This document shows, in pieces, positions 2,576-51,571 of a stretch of 51,571 bases of DNA. Positions within the stretch are counted from its first letter, which is position 1. Every line of letters starts with the position of its first letter. The DNA comes from a virus. Location: positions 1 to 51,571 of the IMG/VR virus record IMGVR_UViG_3300050821_002877; one strand, given 5' to 3'. The notes beneath the pieces are model-generated. The model had not been told where the DNA came from, ran no database searches, and saw only the letters and a list, made by a program, of their open reading frames with translations. The position numbers were made by a program, and so were the translations under genes.

Positions 2576-2651
2576 CATTGAAAACAAAGAAGATAAAGTT
2601 GTATACAGCCATCATGTGAATATGCCAAACTGAAAAGATTGGGAGAGTCTC

Positions 2652-3191
2652 ATGTCTTATAAGCGCCGTCATTCATATTATGACCCATCCTATCCTTCCA
2701 CAACGAAGGTTAGTATCCACTGGTCTAATAAGTCTGCATCTTATGCTATTAAGTTTGCAGATACAAAGAACTGGAATCAGATGCAAATCTGTATAGGATA
2801 TCTGAAAAATATTACTTATGGCGAACGTGATTATGATTCAGAGAATAAGGTCTGGTTCCTTATTGAAAAACATATTGGTGCCTTCAAGGAGATAATTACA
2901 TCTCTTAATCAATATTTTGAGCTAGACTTCATTCCAAAGCCCGAGAATCAAGTAAATATACATCAATTTATACCTATTGATGTATATTTCGATAGATTCA
3001 AGAATCTAACTGGACAAGATATTCGTAATCTCGATTCAGGAAAGGCAAAGAAGATTTATCTTAAATGGCTTATGATTAATCATCCAGACAAGGGTGGAGA
3101 TCATATTATTGCCCGTGATGTAAATGAAGCATGGACAGAATTGGAGAAGAATTTCTTTAAATCTAAAAAGGAGCCTGAATATGTGTCTTAA
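2652..3191 (+). CDS. J-domain protein (HPDKGG) with N-terminal HARP-like region
   Basis: Residues about 128-170 carry the J-domain signature: a basic helix (KAKKIYLKWLMIN), the loop H144-P145-D146 followed by KGG, then a second helix (DVNEAWTELEKNF). J-domains stimulate Hsp70 ATPase, so the protein probably recruits host DnaK. Residues about 20-95 (YDSENKVWFLI...) loosely resemble the HARP-type fold of annealing helicases; that part is uncertain. It overlaps the next gene by 11 bases and leads a coupled cluster that includes a VWA protein and an FtsK-like motor. Confidence 0.75.
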   Translation: MSYKRRHSYYDPSYPSTTKVSIHWSNKSASYAIKFADTKNWNQMQICIGYLKNITYGERDYDSENKVWFLIEKHIGAFKEIITSLNQYFELDFIPKPENQVNIHQFIPIDVYFDRFKNLTGQDIRNLDSGKAKKIYLKWLMINHPDKGGDHIIARDVNEAWTELEKNFFKSKKEPEYVS

Positions 3192-13493: not shown

Positions 13494-14729
13494 TTGTCCC
13501 GTCTTTTAAAGAAAGCATGGCTCGATAGTTTTCTTGATTATACTGCACATACCGAGACTCCCAGAGAGTATCTTTTATGGGGTGGAATAAGTACAATATC
13601 TAGTGCTCTTAAAAGAAATATATTTATTTGGTATTACGACACACAGATCACAGCGAATCAATATATTATCCTTGTTGGTCCTCCCGGGATCGGAAAAGGT
13701 GTCGCAATATCTAAGGGTTTTGGAATTGCTAGAAAAGCTAAGGCAATCAATTATATCAAGAACTGGCACACGCCGCAAGAAGTAATAGAGAAGATCGCGG
13801 AAGGATTTTCCACAGTAACACTCAAGCCCGGCCAAGTAGTCACGGCGAATATGAAGATGGATCATACGGCATGTATAGTAGCACCAGAGTTGGCCGTATT
13901 TCTACAAAATTATGAGAATCTTCATAGTCTCCTTTGTGATCTATGGGACCAGAAGGAGTTCGATTATGGGACTCGTAACAAGGGTAAGTTCCAGATTGAA
14001 GACATGTCTGTTAGTCTTCTTGGAGGATGTGTTCCTGATTATGTACGAAATTTTAGTAAAGACAGACTGGCTCCTATTACTGGCGGGTTTACTGCTCGTA
14101 CTATATTTGTGTATGCTTCTGAGAAGTATCAATTAGTAGATAATAATTTTGGTTCTCCGACAACAGTTATTAGTCAATTAGAAAATGATCTTATTAATGA
14201 TCTAGCCCACATATCAACCCTGAAAGGAGAGGTAAAACTTGACAAAAAAGCAGTCCCACTCTGGGAAGAAACATATAAAAAACATAATGCAAGGGGAAAT
14301 ATTGATAGTGACGCTAGTCAGAACTTCAAAAGCAGAATTAGTACCCACATTATCAAAACCGCCTTGTCAGTCAGTCTTTCTGAATCAGATAGTCTCATCA
14401 TCACAAAAGATCAGTTACAGCGAGCTATTGGATATGTTGAAGGAGTCAGAGATAAGGTTGATGTTGTGTTCAGATGTATTGGCGAAAGTCCACTTGCCGT
14501 TGCAATGAGTAAGGCACAAGCATATATAGATGCGGTTGGGATGTGTAGTTATAAAACTTTATTGAAGTATATGTATAGAGATTCCACAGAAGATCAATTA
14601 AATGCAATAGTGACAGTTCTGGAAAAGACTGGATTAATTATTACAAAAATTGATCTGAATGGAAATTTGATGTATTGGAGTACTAGTACAGGGAATGGAA
14701 GTAATCCACATAAAGGAGTTGGACCATAA
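13494..14729 (+). CDS. DUF3987-like P-loop replication protein/helicase
   Basis: The N-terminal pattern (WLDSFLDYTAHTETPREYLLWGGISTISSALKRNIF) leads into Walker A GPPGIGKG (residues about 62-69) and an ELAVFL strand, as in phage DUF3987-type primase/helicase proteins. There is no ATG; the only start before the conserved region is TTG, after two in-frame TAA stops that end the HNH gene. The stop overlaps the next start (ATGA). The likely job is replication initiation or helicase activity. Confidence 0.75.
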   Translation: MSRLLKKAWLDSFLDYTAHTETPREYLLWGGISTISSALKRNIFIWYYDTQITANQYIILVGPPGIGKGVAISKGFGIARKAKAINYIKNWHTPQEVIEKIAEGFSTVTLKPGQVVTANMKMDHTACIVAPELAVFLQNYENLHSLLCDLWDQKEFDYGTRNKGKFQIEDMSVSLLGGCVPDYVRNFSKDRLAPITGGFTARTIFVYASEKYQLVDNNFGSPTTVISQLENDLINDLAHISTLKGEVKLDKKAVPLWEETYKKHNARGNIDSDASQNFKSRISTHIIKTALSVSLSESDSLIITKDQLQRAIGYVEGVRDKVDVVFRCIGESPLAVAMSKAQAYIDAVGMCSYKTLLKYMYRDSTEDQLNAIVTVLEKTGLIITKIDLNGNLMYWSTSTGNGSNPHKGVGP

Positions 14730-15442
14730 TGACAAGACCTGTATATAAAATATGTATTCAATGTGGTGGTGAAGTAGATTTTGATACAAATAAATGTATA
14801 TTATGCGGTGAGGATAATAGCAATACTCCTAGATTGAAAAATATTCCTTTTCATAATACATTATTACAAAATAAACAGCCTATAAATTCTCAATGGGCCG
14901 TTATAAAAGATCAGTATATGATTTCTCCCATTTATGGCGGAAATGGACGTGTTCTCGTCCAAGAAAATCCCTTCAAGAGTAAATTCGATTGCAGTAAATG
15001 TGGTGGCCAGAAACATCTCGGTATAACTTGTCCACGTTGCGAAGGTACAAAATTAGTAAAAGGTGATGACTGTTGGGAATGTGAAGTTGCCTCCGAGCGT
15101 ACATCAAATGTCATGGGCGGTAAGATTTCTATAGGCTTTGTACCATGTGACCAATGTCATGGTACAGGAGGGACGATCGTAATCCCGGAAGAAAATCAAA
15201 GAAATACTCAGACAGGAAAAGTTTTGGCTGTTAGTGATCGAGAGATATTAGAAGTAAAGATTGGAGAAGACGTGATGTTTACTAGTTTTTCTGGAAGTCC
15301 CTTCAAGTTCCTTGATATTGATCTAAGGATTATTATTGAAAGGGATTTACTAGGAAAAGTTAAGCAACTTAAGAAGAATGTAGATGGATTAAATGAGGGC
15401 ACCTTTGCTGCTCTGGAAAATACAGGTACCCCCCGTGAATGA
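14729..15442 (+). CDS. GroES-like co-chaperonin with DnaJ-type zinc finger inserted
   Basis: There are three modules. A zinc ribbon occupies residues 9-26 (C9, C12, C23, C26). A GroES-like first strand (GRVLVQENPF, about 73-82) then breaks into a DnaJ-type Cys-rich domain with four CxxC pairs (C88/91, C101/104, C115/118, C140/143, the last CDQCHGTG). The GroES pattern resumes as GGTIVIPEENQ, TGKVLAVSD, VKIGEDVMFTSFSG and IIIERDLLGKV. IVI (150-152) aligns with the GroEL-binding IVL of the GroES mobile loop. It probably caps the host chaperonin or targets substrates. It is the last large gene of the early unit. Confidence 0.75.
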   Translation: MTRPVYKICIQCGGEVDFDTNKCILCGEDNSNTPRLKNIPFHNTLLQNKQPINSQWAVIKDQYMISPIYGGNGRVLVQENPFKSKFDCSKCGGQKHLGITCPRCEGTKLVKGDDCWECEVASERTSNVMGGKISIGFVPCDQCHGTGGTIVIPEENQRNTQTGKVLAVSDREILEVKIGEDVMFTSFSGSPFKFLDIDLRIIIERDLLGKVKQLKKNVDGLNEGTFAALENTGTPRE

Positions 15443-19540: not shown

Positions 19541-20430
19541 TATTTACTTATCAACCTCACGCCACCAAGCATAGCGAGAATATGTTCGATATTTGTCCCC
19601 TCATCATAATCATCCCATGTCGGGATACATATATATGGAATTGTCGGAGGAATTACTCCAAGTTGATCAAAGAACCAATTTCCACCTTGACTATCAATTA
19701 CTCGCGTTGGTCCATTACCAGGCCAGACAGATAATGAATAATCTCGTAAACCTTTAAAATCTTTTGCTGATATATTCGCAGGAATTGGCTGCCCACCATC
19801 ATTGAAACATGGATTGGCAGAACACATCTTCATTGTGGACTTAGCACTATCAGATTTTAATATCGCAAGAGAGTCTACTGGATTCGCAGAGTTATTTGAA
19901 ACATTTGGCCACGTATATCCAGAATGCCAAGAAATAATCGGAGTTGTTGGACAGGCCAATTGTACATTAACTATATTCACACCAGCAGAATTCGCTAGAT
20001 CAAATTCACAGATATATCGTTCTGGGAGATATATAGGAGAATCAAATATTCGCTGATAATCTACTGATTGTAGTGAATCAATCACTGCCTGTGTCGGATT
20101 TGGCTGTTGCTTTGCGATCCAAGGATCTAAAAGAAGGCAAAATAACATTTGTCTTTCTAGACAAGCTTCCCATAATTTTATTGTCGCATCATGAAGAAAT
20201 GGATTTACAGTTACTCCTTGTACAGTCAGACGCCAACCATCAAATCCCGCAGCTTGTGCTAGATCACATTGATTTGCAATCACGGATGGATCATTAGATA
20301 GATATCTACTCTGCCGATGGACTTGTGTTCCATTCTTCTCACCGGACCAAGAAATTTTATCAACTAATACTTTCCCATTCCATCCAGGGATATTTTTCTG
20401 AATAGATTTCTTAATATTAAGTTCTATCAT
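19540..20430 (-). CDS. TIM-barrel glycoside-hydrolase-like protein
   Basis: The C-terminal IPTWDDYDEGTNIEH resembles the WNDYGEGT motif of GH71/GH99-type and related (beta/alpha)8 hydrolases. Earlier strands (GFDGWRLTVQG, LFCLLLDPW, PIISWHSGY) fit a TIM barrel. It is 296 aa with no signal peptide. It may be a lysin or polysaccharide depolymerase, or may process a product of the adjacent ATP-grasp enzyme, whose stop it overlaps (ATGA). The assignment is motif-level only. Confidence 0.6.
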   Translation of the reverse strand: MIELNIKKSIQKNIPGWNGKVLVDKISWSGEKNGTQVHRQSRYLSNDPSVIANQCDLAQAAGFDGWRLTVQGVTVNPFLHDATIKLWEACLERQMLFCLLLDPWIAKQQPNPTQAVIDSLQSVDYQRIFDSPIYLPERYICEFDLANSAGVNIVNVQLACPTTPIISWHSGYTWPNVSNNSANPVDSLAILKSDSAKSTMKMCSANPCFNDGGQPIPANISAKDFKGLRDYSLSVWPGNGPTRVIDSQGGNWFFDQLGVIPPTIPYICIPTWDDYDEGTNIEHILAMLGGVRLISK

Positions 20431-21698
20431 TTAAGCCATCCTTGAGAGTCGAGAATCTTATATCTTTCCGTTGTTAATTTCTCAATATCAGTCCTATACT
20501 GCATACTAGGGATATGAATCTTCTTTATTTTCTCATTAACTTTTCCAAATGCTTCATATATACTTCCTCCGTTACACAATGGTACGCATACCAGACCATT
20601 AGTGCCACAGGTGACAAAATGATCATTATCATCACAACAACAATCATAGAGAAAGCAATTTTTAATAATATCATCTTCTTCCAATCCCTCTATGGGAATA
20701 TCTTCCGGATGTTTATTCCTTATTTCCGACGGATATGGAGGAATGCTAATACGAATACCAGCAGCATAAGTATTAAGGATATTAATAGTGGGATTTCCAC
20801 CCACACTAATCTCGCCGATGAAGTCACCAAGATTATCAATACAAGTATACAAAGTAGCACTAGCATCGTATCCAAAGCGTGGTGTCCATTCAAGGCCATA
20901 CAATTTTCCATCAGTTACAATAGTATTTAAGTCCACCATTCCATAAAAATTATATTCTTGAAGAAAATCTTTTAATTTCCCAAGACCTTCTCTAAAAATA
21001 TAGGGCTTGTTCTGTTGATCATATATCCAAACAAGATTCCCACTACATCCAGTATTCGGCCCCTTGCCATCATTCATAAACTTCTTCTCTTCAAGAGTTC
21101 CATTAATCAAGAAGAAGTCTTCCCCATTAAACCATCCTTCCGTTGATACTTCCGTCCCTTGAACAACTTCCTGTAAAACGAATTCTGTTCCGTGGGATGT
21201 ACTATCAAGTTTATCGAGATACAACAACATATCTTCCGCTGATTTTGAGACATAAGTACTTGCAGTATCCTGAGACTGTCCACCATTCGGTTTGAACACA
21301 AATATTTTATTAGTTTTCTTGATAAATCGTCTGGCAGCTCCAAGGTCATCAAAGGTTTCATAGAATGGGACATTAATATCACACTTTTCCATTACTTCTA
21401 TCCCGAAGGTACGGTCATCTTCGAGTTCGCTATGAAGATCACCATCGCCAATAGTAGGTGCATAAGTACTCGCCTCTTCTGCAAGTTTTGGCTTTCCTGT
21501 TAAATCAAAAAGTATTAAATCATATAATGCAAAATTTGGCCTAGCCCTTAGCGGCAGTTTTATTATGCCGCTAAGGACTATGCTATAATCATCATAGTGA
21601 GCACAGAGCCATATATCTACAGAATGACCTTCTTCTTCTAATTGAAGAGAGAACCATGATCCGAACATACTATATGTCACTATGAGGATTTTTGCCAT
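20427..21698 (-). CDS. PurD-like ATP-grasp ligase
   Basis: The order of motifs follows glycinamide ribonucleotide synthetase: N-terminal ILIVTYSMFGSWFSLQLEEEGH, DGDLHSELEDDRTFGIEVMEK, ATP-grasp FVFKPNGG and FVLQEVVQGTEVSTEGWF, then GMVDLNTIV and GLEWTPRFGYDAS in place of PurD LEFNVRFGDPE. The catalytic Asn and Glu of that last motif are replaced, so the substrate may differ from phosphoribosylamine. ATP-grasp enzymes join a carboxylate to an amine or thiol. It sits in the late unit with a glycosidase-like gene. Confidence 0.8.
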   Translation of the reverse strand: MAKILIVTYSMFGSWFSLQLEEEGHSVDIWLCAHYDDYSIVLSGIIKLPLRARPNFALYDLILFDLTGKPKLAEEASTYAPTIGDGDLHSELEDDRTFGIEVMEKCDINVPFYETFDDLGAARRFIKKTNKIFVFKPNGGQSQDTASTYVSKSAEDMLLYLDKLDSTSHGTEFVLQEVVQGTEVSTEGWFNGEDFFLINGTLEEKKFMNDGKGPNTGCSGNLVWIYDQQNKPYIFREGLGKLKDFLQEYNFYGMVDLNTIVTDGKLYGLEWTPRFGYDASATLYTCIDNLGDFIGEISVGGNPTINILNTYAAGIRISIPPYPSEIRNKHPEDIPIEGLEEDDIIKNCFLYDCCCDDNDHFVTCGTNGLVCVPLCNGGSIYEAFGKVNEKIKKIHIPSMQYRTDIEKLTTERYKILDSQGWLK

Positions 21699-28127: not shown

Positions 28128-29471
28128 TTATCCTGTGAAACAATATCTTGTATGTCCAGTATATGTTGTATTCGATTTAAACTCTGCTTGCCATGAATCA
28201 TCCTCTATAGCATAATTCCATATCTTTGTCCCATTATTCTGAGGGATAGCGAGTCTATAATGATTATAAATATAATTTAATTGGTAATATGGAATAATTG
28301 TCCCTATTGGATTTCCAATAGCAAGATTGATATCATTGTATATAGCATCTCTTGCTGCACCGCCAATACGCTTAAAGCCTCCAAGAGAAACATTATAGAT
28401 ATCATCACTGGATATAAATATACCTAATGGCCCATATGCAGAATATCCAAATGGTAATATATTCCCTATCCCACGATCACTGGCCCAGAGATGATTAAAA
28501 TTAAATGGATTTATCCCCACACCAGTACTAGTTACTTCTGTTATTCCATTCTGTCTCAATATGAATGCCGTTGTTCCGACAGTTAAGGCGCCAAATATAC
28601 TATCCGCAACATCGAGTTCATCATTAAATCCTGCTCCGATATTAACATTCGGATCCCATATAGTCGGGAGTCCTGATGGTGTCCATCGAATACGTTGTGG
28701 GAAATTACCACCACTAGATTCTACAGTATTCAACATCAATAACTGTGCATTCAATTCTATCAGAAAATATGCCCCCGCCGTTACTCCATTCGTAGCATCC
28801 ACCATCCCGACCGCGCTAAATCCATTAGAAGCCGCTGGTTTTCCTCCCATTGTCCATATTATAGGAGTTGTACCAGGATCAGATGTTGTACCAGACAAAG
28901 TGATATTCCATATAGGAATAGTTCCCCCACTAATCCCAGCATTTCCTGCAATTTCTACATTTCCATTACCATCGAGTATTTGTGCCCCTTGTTTATAGGC
29001 AGTATTCTTCCGCCATATAGAAGGAGCACCAACAGAAGTAATTCCATCCCATGACCAGATATTTGTCCCACCATTCGTCCAGAATAATTTATTTACAAAT
29101 ACTTGTACTGCCGCGGGATTTATCGGTCCTGGTTGTATTGGAAATGATCCAATAAGACTCCATACTTTGTCTGGCTTAGACTTATTCTTTAACCACTGAC
29201 TATTAAGTTGCCATAGACCAGTTGGCGTTACAGCACATGTATGATACACATTATTACTATCAATAAATGAAGTAATAAATAACATTGTTTTTCCATCAGG
29301 AGGACCAGGGATATATAATGATTGATTTGGCCGTGTACGGATTTCTCCATTCTTTAGAATAAAATTAACCATAAAAGGAGAAAAATCTGGAGTAAGTTGA
29401 TCCTCTGGAGTACTTACATTTACTCCTCTCCACGGTCCCTTATATTTTTGTTCAAAATAATTTTTAGACAT
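28128..29471 (-). CDS. Beta-propeller tail nozzle/stabilisation protein, 447 aa
   Basis: Repeated beta blades with W-x-W/NGG turns (KLFWTNGGTNIWSWDG, PQRIRWTPSGLPTIWDP, GFNDELDVADSIFGALTVGTTAFILRQNGITEVT) match the phage tail propeller found at the podovirus nozzle (P22 gp10/T7 gp12-like position). It overlaps the exported gene upstream by 8 bases. Likely a ring at the tail tip. Confidence 0.7.
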   Translation of the reverse strand: MSKNYFEQKYKGPWRGVNVSTPEDQLTPDFSPFMVNFILKNGEIRTRPNQSLYIPGPPDGKTMLFITSFIDSNNVYHTCAVTPTGLWQLNSQWLKNKSKPDKVWSLIGSFPIQPGPINPAAVQVFVNKLFWTNGGTNIWSWDGITSVGAPSIWRKNTAYKQGAQILDGNGNVEIAGNAGISGGTIPIWNITLSGTTSDPGTTPIIWTMGGKPAASNGFSAVGMVDATNGVTAGAYFLIELNAQLLMLNTVESSGGNFPQRIRWTPSGLPTIWDPNVNIGAGFNDELDVADSIFGALTVGTTAFILRQNGITEVTSTGVGINPFNFNHLWASDRGIGNILPFGYSAYGPLGIFISSDDIYNVSLGGFKRIGGAARDAIYNDINLAIGNPIGTIIPYYQLNYIYNHYRLAIPQNNGTKIWNYAIEDDSWQAEFKSNTTYTGHTRYCFTG

Positions 29472-30987
29472 AATATACTATTCTCGATAATAGTATTCTC
29501 GCAAACATCCCTATTGCTGGTGCTGGTGGTTGTTGCCAGTCTAGGGCGAGAATAAATGTATCACTTCGACAATTAGTTAATGCTGTACAACTACTCCCAC
29601 CAGAAGTAGATCCAAGAGTATTATTCATCGGAGATGTAAATAAGTACCATCTCCCATCTTGAGATATTGATCCTATCGCATTTTCACCATCAAATGATTG
29701 TGTTGGTAATGAATATGTATGCCCAAATCTAAGTATTATGCCAGACTTGGCTATATTTGTCGGTGGATATATCCCAAGTATTTCATTTACGTCACAAAAT
29801 GTATAACTTGGATTTGATGCTATTGTCGTACTTGTCCAGAAAAATGGCTCTTGATCACTGCCTTTATTATTATACCATCCCCCATGACCATCAAAAGGCG
29901 TAATAATACCAGAACATTGACTAGCTGGAACCGATGTTGGTGTTGTTAATGACGTAACTGGTCGCCCGGCCCAAAAACCATTATTATAATTATTAATTAA
30001 TTCTGTCACGCCAGAATCTATATGGTGTCCTCCACATTGCGTTAATGATGGCCCACACCATGCCCAGACATTAGTAGTCCCACGTTGCCATATATATGGA
30101 CTAGCACCATTATAACATGTCCCATCGCAAGTCTGGATAATAACTATAATATATTGTTCCCCAACTATACCTACATTATGTATACTAAATGTCCCCGGAT
30201 TAGTCGCTCCACCAGTACAATTTTGACAAACAACTGGTCCAGTAGTACCATAATCTCCTGTAATTACTCCAGTAGATGTATTATAGGCTGAACATCCTAC
30301 TCCAGGTGTATATGCCGCTATATATCGTCCTGTTCCTTGTGATGCACTAGTAGAGAATCCATTTGCAAATGTACCATCTGTAGACGATACTGCTGGTGGG
30401 TCAGTTGGATGAATAAATGTATTTGGTATACATGTGGCACTAAAATCATAAATAGTAACACCAGTTGGAGGAGAAGAACTTCCCATATTCCAAGTTTTTA
30501 ATACTGGTCCATCAGCAGATGATGCTGCACTAGCCATTGCATAAAATGGATCTTCAAAAACACGAGAAAAATTTCCACCATTCGTTAGATCAGTTATTCC
30601 AGAGATAGTACTATATTTTAATGTTGGAGTAATTGTATTTGCATTAAAATCATAGAAAAAATGTGCTCCGCCACTACTAGACAAGTAAAAGTGTTTTGAT
30701 GTCTTACTCCAATGATTCCTATCTCCAGAGCCACTAAAATCGGCTACCATACTTTGATTAGATCGAGTATTTGCATCTGTTACTCGTTCTATAGGAAGAT
30801 GAAAAGCTCCAGAATTATTCCCACCACTTACTGGCTCTGGATCAAATACTATTGTCCCTGATCCAGTCAAACCTGAAAATGGTGCTATCGCTGGAGGAGG
30901 GATAGTTGCAGTACTAGTACTAGCACCAAGATAAGATTGGGCATATGATGACGTTACTAAAACTAAAATGAATAATAATCGCTTCAT
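29464..30987 (-). CDS. Exported beta-propeller-like protein, 507 aa
   Basis: It has a Sec signal peptide MKRLLFILVLVTSSYA, then QSYLG. The mature part is beta-rich with repeats of FYLSSSGGAHFFYDFN-like strands and several close Cys pairs (CQNC, CDGTC, CGPSLTQC), consistent with folding and disulfide formation outside the cytoplasm. It lies in the tail-gene cluster. It may be a receptor-binding or secreted decoy protein. Confidence 0.7.
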   Translation of the reverse strand: MKRLLFILVLVTSSYAQSYLGASTSTATIPPPAIAPFSGLTGSGTIVFDPEPVSGGNNSGAFHLPIERVTDANTRSNQSMVADFSGSGDRNHWSKTSKHFYLSSSGGAHFFYDFNANTITPTLKYSTISGITDLTNGGNFSRVFEDPFYAMASAASSADGPVLKTWNMGSSSPPTGVTIYDFSATCIPNTFIHPTDPPAVSSTDGTFANGFSTSASQGTGRYIAAYTPGVGCSAYNTSTGVITGDYGTTGPVVCQNCTGGATNPGTFSIHNVGIVGEQYIIVIIQTCDGTCYNGASPYIWQRGTTNVWAWCGPSLTQCGGHHIDSGVTELINNYNNGFWAGRPVTSLTTPTSVPASQCSGIITPFDGHGGWYNNKGSDQEPFFWTSTTIASNPSYTFCDVNEILGIYPPTNIAKSGIILRFGHTYSLPTQSFDGENAIGSISQDGRWYLFTSPMNNTLGSTSGGSSCTALTNCRSDTFILALDWQQPPAPAIGMFARILLSRIVYYV

Positions 30988-36842: not shown

Positions 36843-37796
36843 CTATGGACCATTAGAACCCCATGTACCATAATAGAAGTTAGCAATAGCCGTAAAGCGA
36901 CTAACAACGGACTCTTTCAATGCCTTTGTATCAAAGTCATCATCAAAATCAGTCTTAGGCTTCTGCCGCCAAATAAAATCAAGATGATGATATTTCTTCT
37001 CACAAAAGGCAAACCATGCACCGACTGAGATTAAGTAGTTACTAATCATATAACCCAAATCTTCGCCAAGAAGTGAGTTAATTTCATTAGTCGCTGTTCC
37101 AGGCTTTCCCGGACTACCTAGAAGCTCACGCGCTAGGAATCTATTAGTAAAATGAATAAGAATAGATTTCGGGAAGTACGTGATGGGCATTCCTTGTCCA
37201 TCAATCATTCCTTGAAATTGATTCGTCATTAATTGAATACCAGCAAAAGACAAATCAATATCCGTAGATGGCCTATTAGGATAAGTACCAGGAGCACTAA
37301 TAATTGTTCCAATGCCCGGTGTATAACTTGTCGCCGTAGGTCCACCCAAAAGAGGATGTTGGTTATTAAATAATGAAACACCATCAACAGTCTTGACAGT
37401 AGAGAAGCCAAGATTGATAATATTCCATGCCACAAGTTCCTCTGTAAAGCGCTGTGATCGAGCCAGCGCTTTAGGGACTTGAATGATTACGCCATGCTGA
37501 TCATCATCATGTAACTCAAAGGATGATCTTGCCGCCATTCCATAAGTAAGAGGAATAGCTCGGATTGTCCCACCCTGGATAAGTCTTGTATAAAAGAGTG
37601 GTGTATTTTCAGGTTTAAGAACCATCGGAGGGGTTCCAGCAAATTCCAGTTCATCATTATACATTGATGTAATGGACTTAACATTAAACACTGCTGGATA
37701 TTGTAATTCACGCTGCATCATTTCATTCCACTGAAGGAATATGAAGCGCTGGCCCTTCGCCATTAATTGGGCATATTGACCCCGTACCATACTCAT
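36843..37796 (-). CDS. Major capsid protein (Mu gpT-like)
   Basis: It is 317 aa with the capsid-like ending FDTKALKESVVSRFTAIANFYYGTWGSNGP, internal LFNNQHPLLGG and a long E-loop-like region. The order scaffold, then decoration-like protein, then this gene fits the usual head module. Mu gpT-like heads end with similar aromatic/Gly tails. An AGGGAG site precedes the ATG. Confidence 0.8.
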   Translation of the reverse strand: MSMVRGQYAQLMAKGQRFIFLQWNEMMQRELQYPAVFNVKSITSMYNDELEFAGTPPMVLKPENTPLFYTRLIQGGTIRAIPLTYGMAARSSFELHDDDQHGVIIQVPKALARSQRFTEELVAWNIINLGFSTVKTVDGVSLFNNQHPLLGGPTATSYTPGIGTIISAPGTYPNRPSTDIDLSFAGIQLMTNQFQGMIDGQGMPITYFPKSILIHFTNRFLARELLGSPGKPGTATNEINSLLGEDLGYMISNYLISVGAWFAFCEKKYHHLDFIWRQKPKTDFDDDFDTKALKESVVSRFTAIANFYYGTWGSNGP

Positions 37797-40498: not shown

Positions 40499-40822
40499 TT
40501 AATTGCCTCCTTTACTTACTTCTTCCTGTATTTTTGTATGTTCTTCAAGACCACTTTTCATTTTTGTTACCATTTCTAATGCTATGATAAATCCCCGAAG
40601 GATATCTGTGATATTCTGACCTTGCTTATTTACATAACGGGAAACGAGATCATTTTTATATTCTTCTAATTTCTTATTGTAGTAACTGTCCAGTATTATT
40701 TGCTCCGGCTGTTTGAGGTGAAGGAGAAGCATTTGCTTGTGGTCCAGGAGTTTGCTGTACTCCTTGTCCATTACTATTTGGTTGAGCTTCTCCTGCGCCT
40801 CCTTGAACGTTTTGTTGTCCAT
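40499..40822 (-). CDS. Helical 107-aa protein overprinted on the portal C-terminus
   Basis: AAGGAG lies exactly 8 bases before this ATG, supporting a start 149 bases inside the portal gene. The protein is a charged helical chain (FKEAQEKLNQIVMDKEYSKLL...ALEMVTKMKSGLEEH). The overlapping portal tail is low complexity (Gln/Asn/Gly/Pro), suggesting that one frame constrains the other. Possible assembly chaperone; no family recognised. Confidence 0.65.
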   Translation of the reverse strand: MDNKTFKEAQEKLNQIVMDKEYSKLLDHKQMLLLHLKQPEQIILDSYYNKKLEEYKNDLVSRYVNKQGQNITDILRGFIIALEMVTKMKSGLEEHTKIQEEVSKGGN

Positions 40823-42644
40823 TTGCTGCGCTCCTTATTTGTTTAAGTATTTCAACTTCAGGCTGCATTCTGGAGATATCATCATATCCAAAGGCACGGA
40901 GTAATTTGGACATAATATATGACATACCCCCAATACTTCCTAGCAGAAATTGTTTAATCTCCGGAGGAATAACGGGATTTGTTACACCTTGAAGAATCTG
41001 TGCTATTGCGCCATAATGCCGCTGCATTACTTGCGTAAAGAGCATTCCAGTTTGTTTTTCAATCTCTTTATTAATCGACGCTGTTGCCGCTTTAATAGGA
41101 AGTTCAATTCTTCCAGACTTGATGTTGTCAAAAGCCTTTTGTAGTATTGCAGCCTGCTTACCAAGATACCGAAGCCTGTCTTCTCCAATACCGAAATGTG
41201 CATACTGATTAGAAGACTTCTGTCCGATATTAAGGTGCATGTACCGGAAGTCAGTAACATTAATGTTTATTCTCCTATTCCCTGCTTGCATGATAGAAAA
41301 GGTGCCCATACTATTATAATTACCTTTTTTATCAACTGTACCACTTCCCATACCTTCAGAACCGGGCATATCCGTTCCAAAGCGGGCTTTCGCAAGAGAT
41401 AGGGTTAACATCTCTTCATTTACTGATTCTGGAGCAGTTCTTCCTAGTTGTACAATTTCTGCCTCATCAGGATTAAGTGGGAGAACGGCCATTGGAAATA
41501 AACTTATTCCGGCATCAATTCGAGCATTACGGCCACCTAGGACAACACTAGTATTAGATAATGTCCGAGAATCAACACGCTGATTATGTGTCGTACATAC
41601 TTCTTCTTGATACATCTCACCCATTTCAGCAAAACCATAACCAATTAGTCCATCTTCACTATATCCAAGGCGACAAAACTCAAATGGTTCGGTATTCTTT
41701 GGATAAAAATTATAGAATGCCGCCATTCTCAGGCCACCACAATTCTCTCCACCATGACCAAGATGCATGGTAAAAAGAATACTAAACTTCTTATTATTAT
41801 GCCAGTATTTAAACCAGCACTCATAAAAGATCCAAGTAGCAGTATTCTCTCCAGATGGACTAGGAGGATCAATATTCTGATCTTTTAATTTCTCTTCCTC
41901 CTCCGTAGACATGCCTTCATTATCTGGAGAATTTTTAATTTTTTCCCATGCATCCCTATCAAACGCCCCGACAAAAACTTTCTCTTCACATTTACTTTTC
42001 GTAAGGGGATATTTATGATATTTAAATTCTGCATCTTCCCACTTACTAACTCCCGGCGTTGCTGCCCAGTTCTCATAGGCTAATTTTTCAGGCTTAGGAC
42101 CATCATATACTACTCTATCATCAAACATTGGCTTACTATCGGTATCTATTCCGGTAACTATTGCCTCTGTTTGAGTAACCCAGGGTAATTTTATAAGAAC
42201 TGATCCAAGACCAGCATTATCATGTGCGGCTCTACTTTCAGTTCTATATAAGTCTAATTCATCCTGTTTAAGGCCCATTAGATTAAGAAACTCTTCTAAT
42301 GCAACTCTCTGCTCATCCCCATTCTCTGTCTCTGGCCAATCACCACATAAACCAGCAGTAAATAGGGGAAGAATCTCATATATACTCCCAAGCTGTGTGG
42401 CTTTGAGTGTATCGACATTTTCCCCTATTAACTGTATAACAACATTACTAGCATTAGCCCAAGGAAAGCTTCGTGATTCTTCCTTTGGTTTACCTTTTAT
42501 TAATTTACGCCACTTTGGGACCAAGTTTTCATGCAGATTTGCATAGGCATCTTTTAGAGATGTGAGATTATCATAGACATATCTGTCTAGATTCTTATCC
42601 TCATCTCCGCCGAGGTTTACCTTTACTGGTCTTAATAATGGCAT
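40674..42644 (-). CDS. Portal protein, podovirus type, 656 aa
   Basis: The sequence shows the usual portal layout: N-terminal helical wing (PKWRKLIKGKPKEESRSFPWANASNVVIQLI), central DNA-tunnel region (GYGFAEMGEMYQEEVCTTHNQRVDSRTLSNTSVVLGGRNARIDAG) and helical crown. The length is close to P22-like portals. The low-complexity C-terminal 45 residues overlap the next gene. It forms the dodecameric DNA gate at the head vertex. Confidence 0.85.
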   Translation of the reverse strand: MPLLRPVKVNLGGDEDKNLDRYVYDNLTSLKDAYANLHENLVPKWRKLIKGKPKEESRSFPWANASNVVIQLIGENVDTLKATQLGSIYEILPLFTAGLCGDWPETENGDEQRVALEEFLNLMGLKQDELDLYRTESRAAHDNAGLGSVLIKLPWVTQTEAIVTGIDTDSKPMFDDRVVYDGPKPEKLAYENWAATPGVSKWEDAEFKYHKYPLTKSKCEEKVFVGAFDRDAWEKIKNSPDNEGMSTEEEEKLKDQNIDPPSPSGENTATWIFYECWFKYWHNNKKFSILFTMHLGHGGENCGGLRMAAFYNFYPKNTEPFEFCRLGYSEDGLIGYGFAEMGEMYQEEVCTTHNQRVDSRTLSNTSVVLGGRNARIDAGISLFPMAVLPLNPDEAEIVQLGRTAPESVNEEMLTLSLAKARFGTDMPGSEGMGSGTVDKKGNYNSMGTFSIMQAGNRRININVTDFRYMHLNIGQKSSNQYAHFGIGEDRLRYLGKQAAILQKAFDNIKSGRIELPIKAATASINKEIEKQTGMLFTQVMQRHYGAIAQILQGVTNPVIPPEIKQFLLGSIGGMSYIMSKLLRAFGYDDISRMQPEVEILKQIRSAANGQQNVQGGAGEAQPNSNGQGVQQTPGPQANASPSPQTAGANNTGQLLQ

Positions 42645-43833: not shown

Positions 43834-44158
43834 CTACTTTTGCCTGATTAATCAAATGTTGTTGATATATCATTTCCTGATCCTTAACCACCACATCCGC
43901 AGCTTCTGCGGCTACTTTATCAGCATCTACATTCGTTATTTCTGCTATTCTATGTGCTTGAACGGCATATCTACGAGCAAAATCTACATTAAGTTTCTTC
44001 TGTTCCCCCATTGCACTATTAGATAACATATGTGTAGCCTCACCAGTTTTCTTAATTTTCCCTGCCTGATACGCATTCCATGCAGTAGTTATACCAATTG
44101 CAAGGAGCATTATATTACCAGCGTTCATATCATTAGGACTAAGCATAAATAATCCCAT
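43814..44158 (-). CDS. Small protein with N-terminal hydrophobic helix, 114 aa
   Basis: Residues about 12-30 (NAGNIMLLAIGITTAWNAYQAG) form one membrane helix; the rest is charged and helical, possibly coiled coil. It starts in a TAATG overlap with the large terminase. A lysis or internal-virion role is possible. Confidence 0.6.
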   Translation of the reverse strand: MGLFMLSPNDMNAGNIMLLAIGITTAWNAYQAGKIKKTGEATHMLSNSAMGEQKKLNVDFARRYAVQAHRIAEITNVDADKVAAEAADVVVKDQEMIYQQHLINQAKVDAKDQN

Positions 44159-46038
44159 TAATATCCTGTAATAGCAGATCGTCCAGAATTACTTCGTGAA
44201 TTGATAAGCATCTTCTGTTGATTATGTACAAACAAATCTGTTTCTTCCTCACTCATATGAGATAAATCAAGATTTTGAATCCCGTGTCCAAGAATATCTA
44301 AGATATCACGAGTTGCACAATGAGGATATTCGTTGTATTCTTCGAGGAATTTTTGTGTAAATCCTTCTCCTGCATTTTGACAAATCCAGATTTGCCCGCG
44401 ACGAAAAAATGGCTCTGTGTCTTCAATACGATCACTTTTGGCATTCGCATTCCTGTTGTCTTTGAACTCATTTATCTGCCTAAAAAACCACTTGCCAAGT
44501 GATTGTCTTGTTTTATCTTCTACCTCAAATGCTGTCTTACACCATGTTTGTCCAGCGCTTATTTCTACCCATATTTCCCTTACGCGCCACTTTTCCGCCA
44601 TAACATATGCATGATGCATGATATCTTCTCGACTACATGTATCAGCGCGGCCATCGAGAATATACAGATTTGTAGGAGTATTATTAATCCCAAGTAACAT
44701 AAGAGCATGATTCGCACGACCTTCTTCGCCCTTGTGATTTGGATCTAACATCAACATCTTAGATAAGGATGATGTTGGGATATCTTTAGGAAGAATACCA
44801 TTATTCATCTCATGGCGAATAGTCATATGACGTTTCGAGACTAATTCATCTGAGGGAATAATACGATAGCCCATTGTTCCAAATGTACCAGAAGGACCAA
44901 GAGGGATATTTAGTTCGTCTTTTTGAAAAGATTGTGCATGTTTTTGAACTACTGTTGGAATTAATACAAAGTATCGTAACCACTCGGACTTAAAGGTATT
45001 ACCGCCAGGGGGAATAGGTTTGTTGCGAAATTGGCAACTGTAAAAGTATTCTCCCAATCTTGACCGCATTCTACTAAGTTTCGCAATAGACCATTCCTCT
45101 GGGAATATTGGAGTATTGGTTGGATGAAGATCACAACATCCCCCTTCAGCATCATGAGTATGAAAACGGAAATAAGGAAGTTCTTTCTTTATCTTCCAAT
45201 TAAGATCATGGAAGGACCACCTATTACCATTTACAACCTCATCGCATTCACTCTCTGGATCATCGGGATCACTATCGAAAGCGCCTACGGCTAATTGGAA
45301 CCATTCCCATGTGGATAATGCTACTAATTCTGACTTAAGAGCATCTTTTCCATACAAATCATCATAGATAATGCGCCGATAGTGTTTTGATTGGAGAGCA
45401 GCATCAACACCAGTAAATTCAAATGTACCTTCTCCTTGATTGGCATCACTTCTAGAATAGTCTCTCTTGTGTGTCATTGTATCCGCTGACCACTGACAAG
45501 AGGAATCTGGCATTATTTCAGGGAATAATTTCTGAAATAATTGATTATGCTTATATTCATTCGATATTTTCTTTCCAATCTTCCATGAGTTCTTAATTGT
45601 CTCCATCGCAATAAGAGTACGTGTATTCTGATCATGTACTCTTTTCATCCAAGTGATCCACTCATCACCATATCCGAGAGATCGCATGAACTTTTCATCA
45701 CGATCCGTGAATGGTAATGCCCACCAAATGGGCATACCAATACTACCAATAGTAGTTTTGAAATGATCTCTAGGGATTTCATTTACTTCTTTTAATTGCC
45801 AACAAAGGAGAGTATCGCAGAATTGACGATGAAAAACATTAGACAAGCGGCGCTTACGAAGAATAATCTTAATAAAGTAGAAATTATCCCCTAATGCATT
45901 AAGACGATGAGCTAAGTTCTGGACGTATGGATTATTTGCTACTGGAGGGATATTATTCCACTTATAGGCAAAACTTGTCCTATTAATCTCTTGTACAAGG
46001 TCGATCTGTGGACTATCGAGGACTTCATTATCTAACAT
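44158..46038 (-). CDS. Terminase large subunit, 626 aa
   Basis: ATPase domain with a Walker A-like PRDHFKTT (89-96) and Walker B IIYDD (223-227); the nuclease domain begins at LMLDPNHKG (D432) and includes DRIEDTEPFFRRGQIW. It cuts and packages DNA into the procapsid through the portal. The endonuclease VII gene overlaps its start by 7 bases. Confidence 0.92.
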   Translation of the reverse strand: MLDNEVLDSPQIDLVQEINRTSFAYKWNNIPPVANNPYVQNLAHRLNALGDNFYFIKIILRKRRLSNVFHRQFCDTLLCWQLKEVNEIPRDHFKTTIGSIGMPIWWALPFTDRDEKFMRSLGYGDEWITWMKRVHDQNTRTLIAMETIKNSWKIGKKISNEYKHNQLFQKLFPEIMPDSSCQWSADTMTHKRDYSRSDANQGEGTFEFTGVDAALQSKHYRRIIYDDLYGKDALKSELVALSTWEWFQLAVGAFDSDPDDPESECDEVVNGNRWSFHDLNWKIKKELPYFRFHTHDAEGGCCDLHPTNTPIFPEEWSIAKLSRMRSRLGEYFYSCQFRNKPIPPGGNTFKSEWLRYFVLIPTVVQKHAQSFQKDELNIPLGPSGTFGTMGYRIIPSDELVSKRHMTIRHEMNNGILPKDIPTSSLSKMLMLDPNHKGEEGRANHALMLLGINNTPTNLYILDGRADTCSREDIMHHAYVMAEKWRVREIWVEISAGQTWCKTAFEVEDKTRQSLGKWFFRQINEFKDNRNANAKSDRIEDTEPFFRRGQIWICQNAGEGFTQKFLEEYNEYPHCATRDILDILGHGIQNLDLSHMSEEETDLFVHNQQKMLINSRSNSGRSAITGY

Positions 46039-51425: not shown

Positions 51426-51571
51426 TGATAGAAATCACGTCTTGCTGCCAATATTTCCCAAAGTGGTGTGCTATTTTTGCTCCTTTCGGCGCTGCTGGAA
51501 TTTGGTGGAGTTGGGACAATATTCGCCGAGAACGCCGCCTGCCTTTGAGCCTGAGCGTGTTTTGCATTAGT
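51422..51571 (+). CDS. 5' part of junction-spanning small membrane protein
   Basis: ATGA overlap with the zinc-ribbon stop. The first 50 codons (MMIEITSCCQYFPKWCAIF...) have a hydrophobic Trp-rich segment (CAIFAPFGAAGIWWSW) and a basic turn (RRERR). After the 80-bp overlap the frame continues at base 81 of the window to a TGA at 123-125, giving 64 aa. Confidence 0.6.
   Translation, partial: MMIEITSCCQYFPKWCAIFAPFGAAGIWWSWDNIRRERRLPLSLSVFCIS
51492..51571. repeat. Right copy of 80-bp terminal direct repeat
   Basis: Identical to bases 1-80; see the left copy. It closes the circle. Confidence 0.97.

Follow-up and report, generated by a model that had tools for sequence, protein, structure and literature searches.

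A phage co-chaperonin of the GroES family with a DnaJ-type zinc finger in its mobile loop

The mobile loop of GroES is the part by which the lid docks on GroEL, and a gene of an uncultured virus raises the question of whether this loop can house a second chaperone-type domain. The gene lies in IMG/VR record IMGVR_UViG_3300050821_002877, the whole 51,571-nucleotide stretch of which was analyzed (hereafter, the window). A sequence-only reading had placed an open reading frame at 14729-15442 on the + strand and described its product as a GroES-like co-chaperonin with a DnaJ zinc finger at the mobile loop. These coordinates are correct, and the frame, which encodes a protein of 237 aa that we call ZF-GroES, is intact. 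Pfam and PHROG matches, an excision rescan and AlphaFold/Foldseek comparisons uphold the proposed architecture: the product is a GroES/Cpn10 protein whose mobile loop contains, immediately ahead of an IVI tripeptide, a DnaJ/BSD2-like finger with four CxxC motifs.

The Cpn10 part is recognizable in the intact protein and more so when the finger is removed. Residues 146-211 match the Cpn10 family (Pfam PF00166) with an E-value of 3.6e-9 and 37 bits against a cut-off of 21.1, and the PHROG match is co-chaperonin GroES (E=3.8e-6). In an excision construct joining residues 64-85 to 145-220, a Pfam rescan raised the Cpn10 score from 37 to 47.2 bits (E=2.4e-12) with a match over profile positions 6-93 of 93, so that the GRVLVQE strand ahead of the finger belongs to the Cpn10 fold. 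GRVLVQENPF had been proposed as the GroES first strand, and we locate this strand at RVLVQE, residues 74-79 (14948-14965, + strand), which is also a strand in the AlphaFold2 model. The same excision in relatives gave long Cpn10 matches above the cut-off for L042 (profile positions 2-92), L026 (3-93) and L006 (5-78), and all 10 members of set A1 matched Cpn10 in a profile test. The remaining Cpn10 barrel, residues 145-212 (15161-15364, + strand), is delimited by Pfam and the model and has a shortened roof segment. Near its start stands IVI, residues 150-152 (15176-15184, + strand), which had been read as the counterpart of the GroEL-binding IVL of GroES; both homology to GroES and column conservation agree with this, every one of the 61 members having I, L or V at residue 150. 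The docking tripeptide reads LAH or ISH, with no hydrophobic triplet, in L132 and L136, and these two may bind a different GroEL or may not bind by the docking loop.

We ran AlphaFold2 on the window protein with an alignment of 51 members. The barrel was modeled confidently (blocks of residues 161-210 at pLDDT 90-95), the finger and loop less certainly. In Foldseek searches with this model the best PDB matches were Cpn10, GroES and T4 gp31 chains, which made up nearly all of the first 34. The sequence-only reading had named two outcomes that would speak against it, the lack of a GroES fold on removal of the finger and a closer resemblance to some other beta-barrel family; what we found is that excision improves the Cpn10 match and that the structural matches are co-chaperonins. 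Another barrel family is ruled out by the excision rescan and by the Foldseek order, in which alcohol-dehydrogenase barrels match only at E>0.2. Against BFVD, the two best matches were unusually long viral Cpn10s, A0A8S5S075 (200 aa) and A0A8S5RQD3 (174 aa), which may be further, unrecognized ZF-GroES members.

The inserted finger spans residues 86-144 (14984-15160, + strand), and its four CxxC motifs lie at residues 88-91, 101-104, 115-118 and 140-143. Its DnaJ/BSD2 character comes from profile comparisons and from a structural match for the relative L042, and is firm for relatives. The window protein itself matches the DnaJ central domain weakly (E=0.012, 16.2 bits, below the Pfam cut-off of 32.7), while in isolation the L026 and L042 fingers span the full model (1-65 of 65) at 1e-7 and 6e-7, respectively. 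Even the best isolated finger among the relatives stays short of the DnaJ cut-off (32.5 vs 32.7), and the L042 finger is narrowly above the Pfam BSD2 cut-off (27.5 vs 27). When the 51-member profile was compared with PDB sequences, its second half matched GroES/Cpn10 chains and its finger part matched the DnaJ cysteine-rich domain (1exk, 2.3e-4) and BSD2 (6ekb, 3.8e-4). The DnaJ/BSD2-like structure of the finger was demonstrated on L042 rather than on the window model: the AlphaFold model of L042 is confident in both parts, with values of mostly about 90 in the finger and 66-72 in the docking loop, and it matches co-chaperonins including gp31 first, followed by BSD2 6ekb (E 0.015, prob 1.00) and DnaJA2 7zhs. 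Whole-query TM-scores are low because only part of the query aligns to either fold. The CxxC motifs form two pairs, as the DnaJ cysteine-rich domain requires, and losses in the family go by pair; two zinc sites are predicted in the finger. A Pfam scan of the window ZF-GroES protein found no J domain (PF00226).

Two further elements of the window protein need separate mention. A zinc ribbon had been proposed at its N-terminus, and the CxxC...CxxC pair is indeed there (residues 9-26; 14753-14806, + strand), with a Pfam DZR match at only E=0.08; it is missing from the closest relatives, L002 and L029, and we retain it as a putative ribbon. The roof segment between G163 and G179 has 15 residues against 22 in an ordinary phage GroES, so the window protein does not have a roof hairpin of GroES length. 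Such a hairpin is no defining feature of phage co-chaperonins, as gp31 also lacks roof loops.

Is this protein an oddity of one contig? A single-protein search of IMG/VR with the window protein gave no match. The first relatives came from a degenerate DNA pattern encoding C..C.G.GG.I..P, and profile-guided scans of IMG/VR brought the family to about 75 distinct relatives, nearly all on phage contigs of uncultured viruses, with a few cut by contig ends. A second, relaxed DNA pattern returned chance matches only. One later search pattern sits in the barrel instead of the finger, and all intact proteins from the search round that included it still had the finger. Four tblastn queries against INPHARED (the window protein, its core, L026 and a handwritten sequence resembling a consensus) did not recover the fused architecture from any phage. 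The matches of phrog_37414 and phrog_9844, possible PHROGs of the same family, were weak and mixed. GTDB genome contigs yielded a single locus, L094 (JARLJL010000016.1). It lies in a Sulfuriferula MAG, on a contig that is phage-like in that the neighbors of the gene are tail-like phage genes also present in L012. We found no further member in 300 genomes of Sulfuriferula's order; with only this one GTDB locus, the host link to Sulfuriferula is tentative. Beside the phage gene, the profile finds an ordinary GroES in this MAG and a DnaJ whose gene lies downstream of DnaK. The two halves of the ZF-GroES profile are thus separate proteins there, each half independently picking its own.

The protein is under selective constraint: between the window gene and L002, pN is 0.22 and pS 0.73, with synonymous sites near saturation. 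Within the protein, change is faster in the finger (pN 0.34) than in the barrel (pN 0.14). An origin of the finger in chance cysteines or a frame artifact is ruled out by the intact, constrained frame and the roughly 75 distinct relatives.

What might such a lid do? In T4, gp31 takes the place of GroES, and the capsid protein gp23 cannot fold without it (PMC6318259, PMC3012670). Since gp31 acts in this way, we suggest that ZF-GroES would likewise replace host GroES on host GroEL to fold phage proteins. ZnJ2, a DnaJ-type finger protein without a J domain, is a holding chaperone for unfolded chains (PMC5818400), and by analogy with DnaJ and ZnJ2 the finger of ZF-GroES may handle clients as well. 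The finger, with its two predicted zinc sites, follows strand 1 and precedes the GG-IVI docking motif, and a presumed heptamer would show seven fingers near the GroEL rim. There their most likely task would be to retain or guide non-native phage chains at the mouth of the cage, thereby joining Hsp40/BSD2-like holding to the lid in one protein. A gp31-like co-chaperonin that caps host GroEL, with the finger as a client-holding arm for virion proteins, is in our assessment the probable function. More tentatively, and somewhat short of an even chance, a single phage polypeptide may unite zinc-finger client holding with GroEL capping such that the seven fingers receive or retain head proteins, making a phage-specific chamber.

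Gene context bears on the likely client. We counted neighbors in 64 sequences including one plain GroES control, leaving 63 members. In 50 of these, a terminase large subunit (TerL) match follows downstream at a distance of 1-4 genes and on the same strand, and 34 have a portal match there; in L141 the gene order goes on to a scaffold-like protein and then the major head protein. The client would most likely be a head protein, whether capsid, portal or terminase. In the window, ZF-GroES instead closes the replication module, away from the head operon: the DUF3987 gene immediately upstream (13494-14729, + strand) has a stop that overlaps the ZF-GroES start (TAATG), which suggests one operon with replication genes. 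The window does encode homologs of the head genes, all on the - strand: a terminase large subunit (44158-46038) homologous to the TerL that adjoins ZF-GroES in the main clade, a portal protein (40674-42644; 1.3e-113 to the portal of relatives) and a candidate major capsid protein of 317 aa (36843-37796; 1.9e-110 to their capsid protein). By homology of these three proteins, the window phage belongs to the same broader lineage as L141. An exact 80-bp direct repeat at the window ends (1-80 and 51492-51571) indicates that the window is probably a complete genome of about 51.5 kb, circular or terminally redundant.

A phage GroEL (Cpn60) was found in none of 30 family records, window included, many of which are fragments. 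J-domain proteins occur in 4 of the 30, 2 of them above the cut-off. The sequence-only reading had assigned a J-domain protein to the window genome as well; the protein concerned (2634-3191, + strand) does have an HPDKGGD motif near its C-terminus and phmmer similarity (3e-8) to J-like proteins of related ZF-GroES phages, two of those just counted among them, and it has no Pfam J-domain match. We therefore refer to it as J-like.

For the gp31-like function we count the Cpn10 homology, the hydrophobic docking residue in 61 of 61 members, the head-gene context and the lack of Cpn60 in the 30 records. Against it count the position of the window gene outside the head operon, the faster evolution of the finger and the LAH/ISH tripeptides of L132 and L136. 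One competing idea is that the barrel has been reused and is no longer a folding cofactor, serving as a GroEL inhibitor, a virion assembly factor or a nucleic-acid-binding regulator. Zinc fingers bind many ligands, the gene accompanies TerL and portal genes in most members, and two members lack the standard docking tripeptide, all of which would suit such a role. Yet the GroES barrel and docking hydrophobics are conserved under constraint, the C-terminal strand is kept and the nearest structures are co-chaperonins, and we consider this reuse highly improbable.

Loop and roof lengths invite a second comparison with gp31, which has longer loops than GroES and no roof loops (PMC6318259, PMC3012670); its mobile loop counts 22 residues against 16. 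Measured from position 80, just past strand 1, to the TG that starts strand 2, the loop of ZF-GroES has 50-100 residues (median 75, n=61) against 16 in an ordinary Acinetobacter-phage GroES, and the roof segment has 13-20 residues against 22 in the control among the 61 members, except for two zinc-roof members with 46-47. These changes run in the same two directions as in gp31 (PMC6318259). The finger could accordingly be a structural spacer, a longer mobile loop giving a higher lid and a larger cage with no client contact, and the variation of finger length and CxxC number among members fits this. The size of gp23, about 56 kDa, serves as the explanation of gp31 (PMC6318259), but the capsid protein here has only about 317 aa, well under that. 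A spacer also has no need to keep cysteine pairs or a DnaJ-like profile, and with the finger preceding the short GG-IVI tip, the inserted stretch may bulge outward without raising the lid. We regard the spacer as unlikely.

The pattern of CxxC loss suggests a third alternative. Most members have four CxxC motifs, eight show three under the strict C..C pattern, several of these having CxC in place of one motif, and another six show two. In a barrel-column tree, built on few columns and with weak deep forks, the two-motif members L012, L054 and L123 fall apart, indicating three independent losses of a CxxC pair. The motifs retained are the first and last, which close the base of the finger in the DnaJ topology, so these members keep a single predicted site. 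This would suit a regulatory clamp, in which zinc stapling at the base of the loop would order the docking tip in advance and raise affinity or tune specificity for host GroEL, letting the phage lid win out over host GroES. One site would suffice for a clamp, however, whereas in most members all four motifs persist, as do long inner hairpins of the DnaJ/BSD2 type; we think the clamp rather less likely than the spacer. As for the preferred client-holding role, a fast-evolving finger and the presence of only two CxxC in several members are as compatible with a spacer, or with an adaptor particular to a lineage, as with a general client site. Zinc need not be essential for holding, because a ZnJ2 mutant without cysteines retained its holding activity (PMC5818400).

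Two members carry a second CxxC...CxxC hairpin, located in the roof loop: L011/L088 (IMGVR 3300050821_003459) and L075 (3300036846_001153). In the same tree, with the same weakness of its deep forks, L075 and L088 stand apart, indicating two independent gains. Their lids would bear zinc elements at both the rim and the roof.

How does ZF-GroES compare with known systems? With GroES/Cpn10 it shares, by profile and structure, the barrel fold, a Gly-preceded hydrophobic docking tripeptide and the C-terminal strand. It differs in a loop of 50-100 residues with a zinc finger in place of about 16 and, in the window protein, in the shorter roof and in N- and C-terminal extensions within its 237 aa. 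T4 gp31 and RB49 CocO are likewise phage co-chaperonins that come without their own GroEL and have a longer mobile loop and a reduced roof. They also share the proposed service to head proteins, which for ZF-GroES is suggested by gene context. Although gp31 is a structural match, the identity in the structural alignment is just 7-12% and no zinc finger has been described in gp31. The four CxxC motifs are those of the DnaJ cysteine-rich domain (PF00684), and DnaJ and DnaJA2 are among the matches of the family profile and of the model of L042; ZF-GroES, in contrast, has neither J domain nor substrate barrels, its finger sits inside another fold, and motifs 1-3 of the window protein deviate from CXXCXGXG. 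BSD2 and ZnJ2 also have a DnaJ-type finger without a J domain, and the L042 finger resembles BSD2 by its Pfam score and by its structural match to 6ekb. Those proteins, however, are chloroplast Rubisco factors that work as separate proteins beside the chaperonin and are not fused to its lid.

We found no described fusion of this kind in the open-access literature. The lid is a recognized Cpn10 and the insert a recognized finger; the combination and its site are new as far as we searched. The GroES mobile loop evidently tolerates a second chaperone-type domain, which selection has kept across a whole phage lineage, and ordinary annotation would label such proteins merely GroES or hypothetical. 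The family offers a natural test case for client selection by a lid and, to those who engineer chaperonins, a ready-made place to attach new functions.

Two other features of the window genome were observed. A tRNA-Gln (anticodon ctg) is predicted at 30459-30550 on the - strand in the structural-gene region, where it overlaps the ORF at 29464-30987 and is possibly a false positive. An ATP-grasp protein resembling phosphoribosylglycinamide synthetase is encoded at 20427-21698 (- strand) near a tail-fiber-like gene, and ATP-grasp-like neighbors occur in L012 and L094 as well.
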